Assembly (NCBI RefSeq): GCF_025398035.1
Contig: NZ_CP104558.1
Location: 248,001-312,000 of the forward strand
Reading direction: 5' to 3'
Source: Rossellomorea vietnamensis
GTDB taxonomy: Bacteria > Bacillota > Bacilli > Bacillales > Bacillaceae_B
Length of the DNA: 64,000 nt
A model generated the notes under the pieces. The model was not told where the DNA came from and made no database searches. It saw nothing but the letters and a program-made list of their open reading frames with translations. Shown here piece after piece: positions 32,760-47,990 of the stretch. How positions within the stretch are numbered: the first letter of the stretch is position 1; each line of letters begins with the position of its first letter. Both the position numbers and the translations under genes were made by a program.

Positions 32760-33323
32760 ATGGCTAAATATAGTGAAGAATTTAAACTAAAACTTGTCAC
32801 CGAGTATCTGGATGGCCATCTTGGATATAAATCATTGGCGAAAAAATATAACCTACCTTCTAAGACACCACTACTAGATTGGGTAAGAGCTTATAAAACA
32901 CAAGGAATAGAAGGTATAAAGCGAAGAGAAATAAACAAAGCGTACTCTGTTCAATTTAAATTAGATACGATACTATTTATGTTAGAGACAGGCGCTTCTT
33001 ATCAGGAAACTGCGGAACAATTTAAGCTGAACAATCCTTCATTAATTCATTCTTGGACGAAAATATTTAATGAACAAGGAGTAGATGGCCTGAAACCTAA
33101 ATTAAAGGGGAGACCTTCTATGTCTAAGAAACCTAATAAATCGGAGAAGAAGGAAGAGAAAAAGGTAACACGCGAAGAGGAATTAGAACGCGAGAATGAA
33201 TTACTGCGATTGGAAAATGCGTACCTAAAAAAGTTGAGAGCTTTTCGGGAGAATCCGAATGCCTTCCGCGAAAAGCACAAGCCAAGCTCGCATTCGAACT
33301 TAAAGAAGAAGGATTCCGATTAA
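32760..33323 (+). CDS. IS3 transposase OrfA
   Basis: A 187-residue protein with two helix-turn-helix motifs (about 10-50 and 65-105) and a C-terminal leucine-zipper-like coiled coil (about 135-160, EELERENELLRLENAYLKKL). It binds the terminal repeats and regulates transposition. The frameshift signal A-AAA-AAG at 33227-33233 lies within the coiled-coil region, at LKK; a -1 slip makes the OrfAB transposase. Confidence 0.92.
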   Translation: MAKYSEEFKLKLVTEYLDGHLGYKSLAKKYNLPSKTPLLDWVRAYKTQGIEGIKRREINKAYSVQFKLDTILFMLETGASYQETAEQFKLNNPSLIHSWTKIFNEQGVDGLKPKLKGRPSMSKKPNKSEKKEEKKVTREEELERENELLRLENAYLKKLRAFRENPNAFREKHKPSSHSNLKKKDSD

Positions 33324-33340
33324 AAGATATTTTTCAAGTA

Positions 33341-34153
33341 GTGGGGATTCCCGAAGCAACCTACCACTATCATGTGAAGGGTTTTGACAAAGAGGATTCA
33401 AATGCAGAATTAAAAGAACTCATTACTTCCCTATTTAAAAAATTTCATGAACGTTATGGGTATAAACGGATTACGAAGGAATTAAAGAAATTAGGTCATC
33501 ATATCAATCATAAAAAAGTATATCGTATTATGCGAGACATCGGATTGAAATGTGTAAAATTCATGCGGAAATCCCGTAAATACAATTCGTATAAGGGGAA
33601 CGTTGGAAAGGTGGCAAAGAACCGATTATCACGCCGGTTTAACACGCATGTCCCTCTACAAAAATTAGTAACTGACATTACAGAATTTAAATGTCTAAAC
33701 GAAGAGAAGTTATATTTAAATCCCATTCTTGACCTCTATAACGGAGAAATCATCGCGTACGGAATCAGGAAACGTCCCACGTTAGATCTAGTCACGGAAC
33801 CTTTACATGAAACGATAGAAATAATAAGAGATCACGCAATCTATCGAACCACCATCCATTCTGATCAAGGCTGGCATTACCAGCACAATCAATGGGTGAA
33901 GACATTAAAGAAGAATAATGTATTCCAAAGCATGTCACGGAAAGCTACATGCGCAGACAACGCTGTAATGGAAAACTTTTTTGGTGTTTTGAAGCAGGAA
34001 ATGTATTATGGAGAAAAATTAGTTACCTTTGAGGATTTGAGAAGCCGGATTGAAGAATATATCCACTGGTACAATCATGAACGTTCAAAAGAAAAATTGG
34101 ATGGACTTAGTCCAGTCGAATACCGAACTCAGTCCATCCAATCAGCTGCATAA
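33341..34153 (+). CDS. IS3 transposase OrfB (DDE integrase domain)
   Basis: A 270-residue segment carrying an HTH_21 region (about 15-65) and an rve-type integrase core with VTDITEF, HSDQGWHYQ and ENFFGVLKQE supplying the D, D and E. The reading frame is -1 relative to OrfA and is open back to the slippery site, so the functional product is the OrfAB fusion; the listed start is only the first possible internal start. It has no stops or frameshifts. Confidence 0.9.
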   Translation: MGIPEATYHYHVKGFDKEDSNAELKELITSLFKKFHERYGYKRITKELKKLGHHINHKKVYRIMRDIGLKCVKFMRKSRKYNSYKGNVGKVAKNRLSRRFNTHVPLQKLVTDITEFKCLNEEKLYLNPILDLYNGEIIAYGIRKRPTLDLVTEPLHETIEIIRDHAIYRTTIHSDQGWHYQHNQWVKTLKKNNVFQSMSRKATCADNAVMENFFGVLKQEMYYGEKLVTFEDLRSRIEEYIHWYNHERSKEKLDGLSPVEYRTQSIQSAA

Positions 34154-34299: not shown

Positions 34300-35370
34300 A
34301 TGAAGAAACGAATATTATTTACGGGCGGAGGATCGGCGGGCCACGTCACGGTTAATACAGCATTGATTCCACACTTTGAAAAAGAAGGTTGGGACATCAC
34401 GTATATAGGTTCGGAAGATGGGATTGAAAAGGAAATCATCACTGAACAATTTCCCCATATCCCATACAAGAGCATTTCCAGCGGCAAGCTGAGAAGATAT
34501 TTTTCCTGGAAAAACTTTTCAGATCCGTTTCGAGTGATGAAAGGCGTGTTTGACGCATTATCCGTCATCAGGAAAACGAAGCCGGACATCATCTTTTCCA
34601 AAGGGGGATTCGTATCCGTCCCGGTCGTGATGGCCGCAAAGATGGCGAAAGTTCCTGTAGCGATCCATGAGTCCGATGTGACCCCGGGACTTGCCAATAA
34701 ATTAGCCGTCCCATTCGCAACTAAAATTTTCACCACCTTCCCGGAAACGGTTCAATCCCTTCCGAGTGAAAAATCTTTATGCGCAGGAGCCATCATCCGC
34801 GAGGAATTATTCACGGGTGATACCCGTGAAGGGAAGAGATTAACCGGTTATTATGAGGATAAACCCGTTTTGATGATCATGGGAGGAAGTCTTGGTGCAA
34901 GAAAAATTAACGAAGCGGTAAGAGGGAATCTGGAGGAGCTGCTGACGGCCTTTCAGATCATTCATATTTGCGGGAAAGGCAATGTAGATGAAAGCCTCGT
35001 ACAAAAAGGGTATCGTCAATACGAATTCATCAAGGGTGAACTGCCTCATTACCTGGCGATGACGGATTTCGTGATCTCCCGTGCCGGTTCGAATTCAATC
35101 TTTGAATTCCTGGCTTTAAAGAAACCGATGTTATTGATCCCCCTCTCCAGGGAAGCGAGCCGGGGAGATCAAATCCTAAATGCCAACAGTTTCGTGAAAC
35201 ACGGTTATGCAATAAAGCTGGAAGAAGAAGAACTGAACGAAAAGAGCTTCTTGGACCGTGTCAATGAGCTTAAGTCCAATCGTGACATCATGATCCGCAA
35301 TATGGAAAAAGGTGAAAAAGCCTACACTATCCAGGATATGTATGAGGTACTTTCCTCCATGTCCCGATAA
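34300..35370 (+). CDS. murG: MurG-type UDP-GlcNAc transferase paralogue
   Basis: A 356-residue GT28 enzyme with [15 protein letters not shown] (7-21), [14 protein letters not shown] (about 99-112), HESDVTPG (about 122-129), GGSLGA and [11 protein letters not shown]. MurG adds GlcNAc to lipid I on the inner face of the membrane. It is alone here rather than in a division/cell-wall cluster, and resembles the second MurG found in several Bacillus genomes. AGGAG precedes ATG 34300. Whether it is the main or an extra MurG cannot be decided from this window. Confidence 0.88.
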
Positions 35371-36404: not shown

Positions 36405-36962
36405 CTAAGCTTCAAGCGCCTGCTCTTCTTCGGGCGACTGCTGAAGCTGATATAAATAGAGTGTGTACAAATCTTTCGGGATCTCATACAGATCATACAC
36501 GTCTTCTTGAGCATTTAATTGATCATAGAGAGATTTCCTTGATTCATTTGCCTTTACGACATAAGGCAGCTTTTCTGCGGCTTTTTGTGAACGCGTATTC
36601 ACCTTTCTGATTCTCATAAAGATGGTTTCCATTCCCAGCTCAAAAAATAACTCGGAAAAGAATGCATCCTTCGCAGGCTGGTTATACCCTTTGCCATGAA
36701 ACGGCTTACCGAGCCACGTACCAAGGAATCCTGCATTTTCCTGGATGTCGAATAAATTAATCGTTCCGATAGGGTTGCCCCACTCGTCCAAAATCGTGCG
36801 GGAAATAAGTTCTCCCCGCTCTTCTGCTTCAATGGTTTGTTTGGTCAGGAAAAGAAGCTCCTCATAGGAATACGCCTTTTGACGCACAAAAGGGAAGACA
36901 TCCGGGTGCACCATCAGGTCATAAAGTTCATGACACTCATGTAAATCACGTTTCTTGATCAT
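36405..36962 (-). CDS. GNAT family N-acetyltransferase
   Basis: A 185-residue acetyltransferase of the RimJ/RimL-like group (Acetyltransf_3): IGTINLFDIQENAGFLGTWLGKPFHGKGYNQPAKDAFF contains the beta-bulge and acetyl-CoA loop, and IRKVNTRSQKAAEKL is the C-terminal motif. The substrate is unknown; relatives modify protein N-termini or amino groups of small molecules. AAGGAGGG precedes ATG 36962 but lies inside a hairpin of the unusual leader described next. Confidence 0.88.
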   Translation of the reverse strand: MIKKRDLHECHELYDLMVHPDVFPFVRQKAYSYEELLFLTKQTIEAEERGELISRTILDEWGNPIGTINLFDIQENAGFLGTWLGKPFHGKGYNQPAKDAFFSELFFELGMETIFMRIRKVNTRSQKAAEKLPYVVKANESRKSLYDQLNAQEDVYDLYEIPKDLYTLYLYQLQQSPEEEQALEA

Positions 36963-37081
36963 AGTAGACCCTCCTTGAGGGCAGTCTACTCGCGTACGAT
37001 CCCACCCTCGAAATTTTTAAATGGTAACTAAAAAATTTCGGGGTGGGAATCGAACCCACTAAGACCAGTCAAGAAACTGGT
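36963..37081 (-). promoter_or_regulatory. Structured leader of the GNAT gene with buried ribosome site
   Basis: Read on the minus strand the leader has four elements. First, a hairpin ACCAG-TTTCTTGA-CTGGT (37064-37081). Second, a T-arm-like hairpin GTGGG-TTCGATT-CCCAC (37043-37059). Third, a long imperfect inverted repeat (37031-37052 with 36997-37018) with about 20 pairs. Fourth, directly before the ATG, AGTAGA...CCCTC-AAG-GAGGG-TCTACT (36963-36990), which encloses AAGGAGGG. Elements two and three share bases, and the GAGGG of element three can also pair with the CCCTC of element four, so folds are mutually exclusive. No known riboswitch class is recognised. Confidence 0.5.
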
Positions 37082-37237
37082 GGCGCACCTTTTGCCTTCC
37101 CTTCATTACAGTCGCTAAAATATATGAATAGATCGCTTTGTAATCGGAAATAAATTATCCATCTGTATCATATACGAAATATCTCAAAAAGGAAATAGGT
37201 AAAATGCTGATTTTTGAAGAAAATTTTTAACAAATTT

Positions 37238-38368
37238 CTACACGTTTTGATAAGCGATTTCCCCGTTGACGAAAGTCAACATAGGCTTTGCCATAAAGTG
37301 AAATGGGTGGTGGCTCCAAAGGACCAGATCGGCATCTTTATTTACTTCAATACTGCCGACCCGGTCAGATACACCAAGGTTTCTGGCAGGGGCGATGGTG
37401 ATTCCTTCCAATGCCTTCTGTTCCTCCAATCCTTCACGCACGGCAATCGCCGCACACATGTTCAGATACTGGATGGGTGTGTAAGGGTGATCGGTCGTAA
37501 CCGACACTTCGACACCGGCTTCCGTCAATTTCTGATAGGTGATCCAGCTCTTGTTTTTAAGCTCTACCTTTGAGCGTCTTGTGAACGTCGGACCGACAGA
37601 AACCTTTAAGTTTTTTCCTTTCAGCTCATCCGCTATGAGGTGGCCCTCCGTGCAATGTTCTATCCGGAGGTCAAGGTTGAATTCTTCAGCGAAACGCACT
37701 GCGGATAAAATATCATCCGCCCTGTGAGCGTGGATCCGAACAGGGATTTCCCGCTTTAAAGCGGAAACGAGAGGAGCGACTCTCAGTTCCTCTGGCTGAT
37801 CACAATATTTAGCAGAGAAAAAGGCTTCCCTGAGCATCCCCATGATCCCCATCCTTGTAATGGAATCATTGTTTCCATTGCTATGGATTCGTTTCGGATT
37901 TTCCCCTAAAGCGATCTTCAATCCGGAGGTTTCTTTGATTAGCATGGATCTGATGTTAGAGCCATGTGTTTTGATCACCGCTGTGGTACCCCCGATCACA
38001 TTCGCGCTTCCGGGCATGACATTCACGGTGGTGACGCCGTATGTAAGGGCGTCTTTAAAGCCGGGGTCCAATGGGTATACCCCGTCGAAGGCCCTGATAT
38101 GAGGGGTCATCGGTTCGATCGTTTCATTGGCGTCGTTACCCGCCCAGCCTGTACCTTCATCATAGAGTCCCAGATGAGTGTGGCAATCAATGAATCCGGG
38201 AAAAAGGAATTTCCCCTGACAATCGTACACGGAAGCGTGGTGGAATCCCTCCACGTCATGGGGGAATATTTGTTTGATTTTTCCGTCTTTTATGAGTAAA
38301 GCTCCATTATGAATAGGCTTGGATGTAATGGGATAAATGGTTACATTTCTTAAAAGTATGGAGTTCAT
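37238..38368 (-). CDS. Amidohydrolase family protein
   Basis: A 376-residue metal-dependent hydrolase of the imidazolonepropionase/dihydroorotase superfamily: DCHTHLG (HxH metal site, about 61-67), VRIHAHRADD and RIEHCTEGH (metal His), and VTTDHPYTP with the late Asp. The N- and C-terminal strands form the usual small beta domain ending with DADLVLWSHHPF. The substrate is unknown. The ATG at 38368 has GAAAGGAAA upstream; another ATG at 38383 also has a fair site, so the start is uncertain by five codons. Confidence 0.87.
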   Translation of the reverse strand: MNSILLRNVTIYPITSKPIHNGALLIKDGKIKQIFPHDVEGFHHASVYDCQGKFLFPGFIDCHTHLGLYDEGTGWAGNDANETIEPMTPHIRAFDGVYPLDPGFKDALTYGVTTVNVMPGSANVIGGTTAVIKTHGSNIRSMLIKETSGLKIALGENPKRIHSNGNNDSITRMGIMGMLREAFFSAKYCDQPEELRVAPLVSALKREIPVRIHAHRADDILSAVRFAEEFNLDLRIEHCTEGHLIADELKGKNLKVSVGPTFTRRSKVELKNKSWITYQKLTEAGVEVSVTTDHPYTPIQYLNMCAAIAVREGLEEQKALEGITIAPARNLGVSDRVGSIEVNKDADLVLWSHHPFHFMAKPMLTFVNGEIAYQNV

Positions 38369-38431
38369 CGTTTTTCCTTTCATGAGGCTTGTTTCCTTAT
38401 TATTTTAAACAATTTTGCGTGAAAAAAGAAG

Positions 38432-47722: not shown

Positions 47723-47745
47723 AGAATAATGATAATCGAATAGGT

Positions 47746-47885
47746 TTCCTTCGGGGCAGGGTGAAATTCCCTACCGGCGGTGATGAGCAAATGCTCTTAG
47801 TCCGTGACCCGGCTAATACATATTAGACGGTGGATTTGGTGAAACTCCAAAGCCGACAGTGAAAGTCTGGATGGGAGAAGGAACG
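47746..47885 (+). ncRNA. FMN riboswitch (RFN element)
   Basis: The conserved RFN aptamer is complete: TCCTTCGGGGCAGGGTG, AAATTCCCTACCGGCGGTGA, AGTCCGTGACCC, GGTGGATTTGGTGAAACTCC, AAGCCGACAGTGAAAGTC and the closing GATGGGAGAAGGA. It senses flavin mononucleotide and controls the downstream ribD-E-BA-H operon by premature termination at 47991-48027. Confidence 0.98.
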
Positions 47886-47990
47886 GCAGCATTTAGTTGA
47901 TGGACAGGATAGGAGTCTGACCAGTGTTTATGGATTATTTTTCCTTTCTGAAACATCAGATCGAATGCTTTATTTAGTCATGCCAACTTC

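Follow-up and report, generated by a model that had tools for sequence, protein, structure and literature searches.

The closest described counterpart of the RNA reported here is the yjdF riboswitch, for which a tRNA-like fold has been shown experimentally and in which the liganded state frees the Shine-Dalgarno (SD) sequence (PMC9142559). Its D-loop and T-loop contact one another, and acetyltransferase genes are sometimes found among its targets (PMC9142559). Here we describe the leader of a GNAT N-acetyltransferase gene within a 64,000-nucleotide stretch of Rossellomorea vietnamensis DNA (the window), for which anatomy, conservation and covariation, as well as strict linkage to a single gene and thermodynamic coupling, were established computationally. 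We think it quite likely that this leader is a new tRNA-mimicking cis-regulatory switch in which the GNAT gene is switched ON by the folded mimic; direct evidence from expression, probing or ligand binding is lacking. A regulatory RNA in about three quarters of the sampled Bacillales genomes, Priestia and Geobacillus included, has apparently gone undescribed: a literature search found no description of the leader, though an earlier one may have escaped it.

Anatomy of the leader

All elements of the leader lie on the minus strand, upstream of a same-strand gene (36405-36962) encoding a GNAT N-acetyltransferase of 185 amino acids (PF13302, E 2.5e-12). The SD sequence GGAGGG (36974-36969) is enclosed by an AGTAGA..TCTACT hairpin (36990-36963; AGTAGACTGCCCTC-AAG-GAGGGTCTACT, or AGUAGACUGCCCUC-AAG-GAGGGUCUACU), just as a preliminary description of this DNA had stated; the outer AGTAGA/TCTACT stem is specific to the genus. 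That description had also reported an inverted repeat at 37047-37001, for which the minimum free energy (MFE) structure has 20 pairs and one bulged A, and a T-arm-like motif, GTGGG-TTCGATT-CCCAC (37059-37043), which proved to belong, as its third arm, to a full cloverleaf resembling that of tRNA. The interval it had proposed, 36963-37081, does contain the parts it named but stops short at the 5′ end, as the cloverleaf runs to 37101 and a promoter-like block lies at 37202-37165.

The cloverleaf (37101-37040), which would serve as the sensor, reads GGG-AA-GGC AAAAGGUGC GCC-ACCAGU uucuug ACUGGU-cuua-GUGGG UUCGAUU CCCAC-CCC. It consists of a 3-bp acceptor stump (GGG/CCC) followed by an AA linker, a D arm (GGC-AAAAGGUGC-GCC, 37096-37082) with the tRNA-type GG in its loop, an anticodon-like arm (ACCAGU..ACUGGU, 37081-37064) with a loop of variable length and sequence, a four-nucleotide variable loop (cuua) and the T arm (GUGGG-UUCGAUU-CCCAC). 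When the segment is folded in isolation the cloverleaf is the MFE structure (-21.8 kcal/mol), with the modelled arms and one extra pair in the anticodon arm, and it is also the MFE structure of the isolated segment in 172 of 177 homologous leaders. A 171-nt stretch was compared with 200 dinucleotide shuffles and had the better fold in 199 cases (z -3.7). The leader contains candidate upstream open reading frames through which attenuation might act; the ATG at 37106 is missing from homologous leaders beyond the genus.

Three switch strands connect the cloverleaf with the ribosome-binding site. S1 (CCCACCCC, 37047-37040) can pair within the cloverleaf or with S2 (GAGGGTGGG / GAGGGUGGG, 37009-37001), which can pair with S1 in the proposed OFF state or with S3 in the ON state. 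S3 (CTGCCCTC / CUGCCCUC, 36984-36977) can pair with either S2 (ON) or the SD (OFF). A distal hairpin (GAAAUUUUUU..AAAAAUUUC, 37039-37010) fits both states. S1, S2, S3 and the SD are kept throughout the order.

Comparison of upstream regions revealed a conserved promoter-like block (TATTTCCTTTTT..GTATGATAC, 37202-37165) containing a -10-like TATGAT (37172-37167). The block reads AAATTAACAAAAA..CTATTTCCTTTTT..GTATGATAC and is strongly conserved, with a poor -35; its TATGATA core emerged from this comparison only, not from a standard sigma-70 consensus scan. Of 186 leaders, 100 have the motif [GA]TAT[GT]ATA[CGA] upstream of the element, mostly at a distance of 40-90 nt; shuffles gave 10.7. Given this conserved upstream block, the leader is probably transcribed from its own promoter, and the block is possibly a site for an activator or a special sigma factor. 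A transcription start downstream of 37000, which would have refuted the preliminary description, is not indicated, the conserved -10-like box lying well upstream of that position. An amidohydrolase gene (37238-38383) lies on the same strand just upstream of the leader, and read-through from it is not excluded. Elsewhere in the window, an FMN riboswitch (RF00050, 115.7 bits) is found on the plus strand at 47743-47886, and an IS3-type transposase-like pair of open reading frames (32760-34153, plus strand) stands beside a MurG-like glycosyltransferase gene (34300-35370).

Distribution, gene linkage and covariation

A DNA search recovered the leader from 37 of 41 relatives, other families of the order included; the weakest match spans no more than 30 bases. 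We built a covariance model (R1) from 18 leaders, and of the 397 genomes in the order 333 gave a match. Twenty-nine of these matches had E values above 1e-5 and tRNA-like scores and were excluded, leaving the element in about 304 of the 397 Bacillales genomes (65-117 bits, E below 1e-11); real tRNAs scored at most 38 bits. Phylum-wide, scores above 38 bits were obtained solely from members of the order and one other genome, and three more genomes of the family of the latter were added later. Being kept in hundreds of species, the leader also escapes the second refutation that had been envisaged, namely a lack of conservation in relatives.

A GNAT orthologue (42-100% identity) was the next gene at all strong loci examined, and at the single apparent exception MLKKRD.. 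could likewise be read at the expected place. A DNA pattern describing the RNA only, without regard to the gene, was run on named GTDB genomes and found at least 119 loci. Among the pattern matches listed, which include Oceanobacillus, Metabacillus, Priestia, Geobacillus, Anoxybacillus, Halobacillus, Neobacillus, Cytobacillus, Fictibacillus, Viridibacillus and others, GNAT lay downstream at 119 of 119 loci; a protein related to the amidohydrolase was found at the same position as in the window at 66 of the 119 listed. The linkage extends to absence: 34 of 36 element-negative genomes were also without the GNAT orthologue, and the remaining two, both of one genus, retained GNAT without the element. 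Outside the order, GNAT orthologues occur both with and without the element, and the gene therefore probably predates the switch.

Two divergent groups were recorded. Four loci of one family outside the order have GNAT orthologues without the cloverleaf, and the orthologues of this family have another conserved leader in common (GTTCGAAC or similar, ..TATGCTTTCG..). Three leaders, which belong to one family, are without S2; here the sequence preceding the SD (CCCAC or ACCCGCTA) shows complementarity to the T arm's 5′ strand, an arrangement that would invert or simplify the switch.

Alignment of orthologous leaders, the check for covariation that the preliminary description had put forward, was positive. 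An alignment of 100 leaders gave 98.6% standard pairs among the cells of 23 pairs, and 13 of the 23 changed on both sides. There were 104 double-change cells compared to 28.6 expected, a value reached by none of 500 shuffles, and the signal collapsed in slid controls. The alignment had been fitted to the model, which biases these counts towards it; an independent MAFFT alignment of 18 leaders pointed in the same direction. Covariation was strongest in the anticodon-like arm (4 of 6 pairs) and the distal hairpin (all six modelled pairs), and two of the five T-arm stem pairs covaried. The acceptor stump and D stem showed almost no variation, and their predicted pairing is supported by conservation, not covariation. 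The D arm as a whole is near-invariant, and none of the 100 sequences departs from the D-loop GG or the T-loop UUCGAUU.

It had further been proposed that the CCCTC arm (S3) can pair instead with an upstream GAGGG (S2), and the pair types found between the two strands in 178 leaders are indeed compensatory. S2 (GAGGGUGG) and S3 (CUGCCCUC) form eight pairs, which in most species include a tandem U-G/G-U; in other species S3 is CCACCCUC, giving U-A and G-C in place of the tandem, and the alternatives seen at positions 2 and 6-8 include A-U and C-G. Over positions 7-12 the pairing score was 4.06, against a partner-shuffle mean of 3.45 and maximum of 3.68 (200 shuffles).

Coupling of the cloverleaf to the ribosome-binding site

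Nearly all leader tails (181 of 188) have their SD zone base-paired. Predicted SD accessibility was 0.19 with S1 free and 0.57 with S1 locked; in a control in which the middle was shuffled and the SD retained, it went from 0.23 to 0.29. Permutation of S1 was useless as a control because the strand is nearly all C. When the cloverleaf was enforced on whole leaders, predicted accessibility rose from 0.20 to 0.56, with an increase in 142 of 177 leaders and a decrease in 5. In the window species the gain was smaller, from 0.25 to 0.38; reinforcement of the SD hairpin by the genus-specific outer stem is the probable reason. The competing pairings said to gate the ribosome site are conserved and covary, and predicted SD accessibility follows cloverleaf folding; the initial interpretation of a switch-like leader is supported, with no experimental test and with the choice between a metabolite, protein or tRNA signal undecided.

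Without a stabiliser the OFF fold is preferred, by a median of ~7 kcal/mol across leaders and by ~13-15 kcal/mol in the window species; tertiary elbow energy is absent from this calculation. Because the OFF fold is energetically favoured, switching requires a ligand or kinetic control. In the model we propose, the 5′ domain would fold co-transcriptionally into the tRNA-like cloverleaf and lock S1, the 3′ strand of the T arm and acceptor. With S1 locked, S2 would pair with S3, the SD would be open and GNAT would be translated. If the cloverleaf were not stabilised, S1 would invade S2, and S3, once freed, would pair with the SD. Since transcription yields the cloverleaf before the other parts and it folds unaided, we infer a kinetic switch in which the mimic is stabilised before S2 appears; a cellular factor that stabilises the cloverleaf, making ON the bound state, is likewise an inference.

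In 33 of 188 leaders the SD hairpin leads directly into a U-tract that immediately precedes the start codon. This terminator-like form is found in Halobacillus, Virgibacillus, Gracilibacillus and relatives (loci including L033, L195, L213, L232 and L261), where the same OFF hairpin appears to have been adapted to a second mode and would additionally terminate transcription.

Candidate signals and comparison with known RNAs

The GNAT protein is highly conserved and matches PF13302 above the cut-off (48.1 against 25.4 bits). Its AlphaFold model (pLDDT 90.8) matches many GNAT folds with Z of about 15-17. The top solved relative in a profile search was MccE (E 3.8e-7), and in fold comparison FdhC, RimL-type proteins, SpeG and many others ranked about equally. 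The nearest solved proteins (MccE, FdhC, RimL, SpeG) share at most about 22% identity and the fold is generic, so that substrate assignment by homology remained unresolved.

The one-gene association suggests that the signal is closely tied to the GNAT enzyme. We tentatively favour, as the most likely stabilising factor, a small molecule that binds the tRNA-like fold and is detoxified by GNAT; polyamines, as tRNA binders and substrates of the fold-related SpeG enzymes, are a candidate by inference. Association with a single gene is unusual for a metabolite riboswitch and counts against this proposal. A protein that binds tRNA folds, possibly GNAT itself, is suggested with only slightly more reserve. 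More speculative still, the mRNA may impersonate a tRNA to report on tRNA state, the thing sensed being a toxin or antibiotic that binds tRNA, an enzyme that modifies tRNA, or a contest for GNAT between the mimic and real tRNA; GNAT would act on the agent sensed or on (aminoacyl-)tRNA. With so strict a tie to one GNAT, identifying what stabilises the RNA should reveal the role of the enzyme, and vice versa.

Could the leader be an autogenous or tRNA-sensing element, in which the mimic, in competition with real tRNA, is bound by GNAT or by a protein that modifies or binds tRNA? The strict one-gene association and the joint absence of GNAT and element would fit, canonical D- and T-loops could be read by tRNA-binding proteins, and the profile-nearest enzyme is MccE, which acts on aminoacyl-nucleotide compounds. 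However, binding that stabilises the cloverleaf gives ON, which would be odd for negative feedback, and the likeness to MccE is weak within a generic fold; we regard this possibility as doubtful. The tRNA-like fold might, without any ligand, simply recruit the ribosome as a constitutive enhancer, much as grafted tRNAs do in vitro, where cis-tRNAs upstream of an SD boost translation 2- to 6-fold (PMC9142559). This seems improbable, as it leaves both the conserved S1/S2/S3 strand exchange and the terminator-like versions unexplained. The switch model itself has to accommodate the three divergent members without S2 and the GNAT orthologues that have no element.

It is very unlikely that the element is merely the remnant of a tRNA gene, or an independent small RNA, that lies upstream by chance: the one support for this is a weak tRNA-family score of 23.1 bits, and such a reading would have to account for a near-invariant core in hundreds of species, with the same gene always next and with pairing into the SD. 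An intact tRNA gene was ruled out on that score (29-bit Rfam threshold), the absence of an ARAGORN call and the 3-bp stump. Slimmer still is the prospect of membership in the azaaromatic (yjdF) riboswitch class, with which the leader shares the idea of a tRNA-like fold and translational control (PMC9142559), but RF01764 gave no match to the leaders, R1 searched against four yjdF loci was empty even at E 10, and three genomes have both elements separately. At gathering score no Rfam family matched the leader in the window or in 20 diverse homologues, in agreement with the preliminary view that it belongs to no known class.

The leader meets the general description of a structured cis-regulatory leader, with a conserved sensor and a mutually exclusive platform before orthologous genes. 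Like guanidine-IV and its variant motif (PMC9788692), it is an orphan leader preceding GNAT genes, but the structure is unrelated and without an Rfam match. Like T-box leaders (RF00230), it would place a following Bacillota gene under control related to tRNA, but a T-box binds tRNA, whereas this leader imitates it. RF00230 gave no match at gathering score, nor among window matches up to E 10, and a T-box reading of AGGGTGGG..GCG was discarded, these letters belonging to S2 and varying with S1/S3. Like the tRNAOther pseudo-tRNA of Bacillus cereus, it is a tRNA-like element inside a larger non-translational RNA; tRNAOther differs in having a Trp anticodon, adjoining a thioesterase gene and belonging to a longer, separate transcript, with no GNAT or SD switch described (PMC3399842). 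Identity of the two was rejected, since the published description gives another locus and anticodon.

Compared to tRNA (RF00005), the leader retains the cloverleaf order, the D-loop GG, the T-loop UUCGAUU and the 2-nt linker (positions 8-9), but it has a 3-bp acceptor stump in place of 7 bp, an anticodon-like loop of variable length in place of 7 nt and no CCA end, and it sits in an mRNA leader. Like yjdF (RF01764), it places a tRNA-like fold upstream of a gene and exposes the SD in the folded state, and it possesses the homologous D- and T-loops characteristic of yjdF, as judged from sequence and predicted fold only. Unlike yjdF, it has an invariant 2-nt AA linker instead of the long purine-rich J1/2 that forms the ligand site, a distinct three-strand relay and only one target gene; the covariance models of the two fail to recognise each other, and both RNAs coexist in the same three genomes. 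The leader would be a second, independent tRNA-like fold serving as a gene switch.
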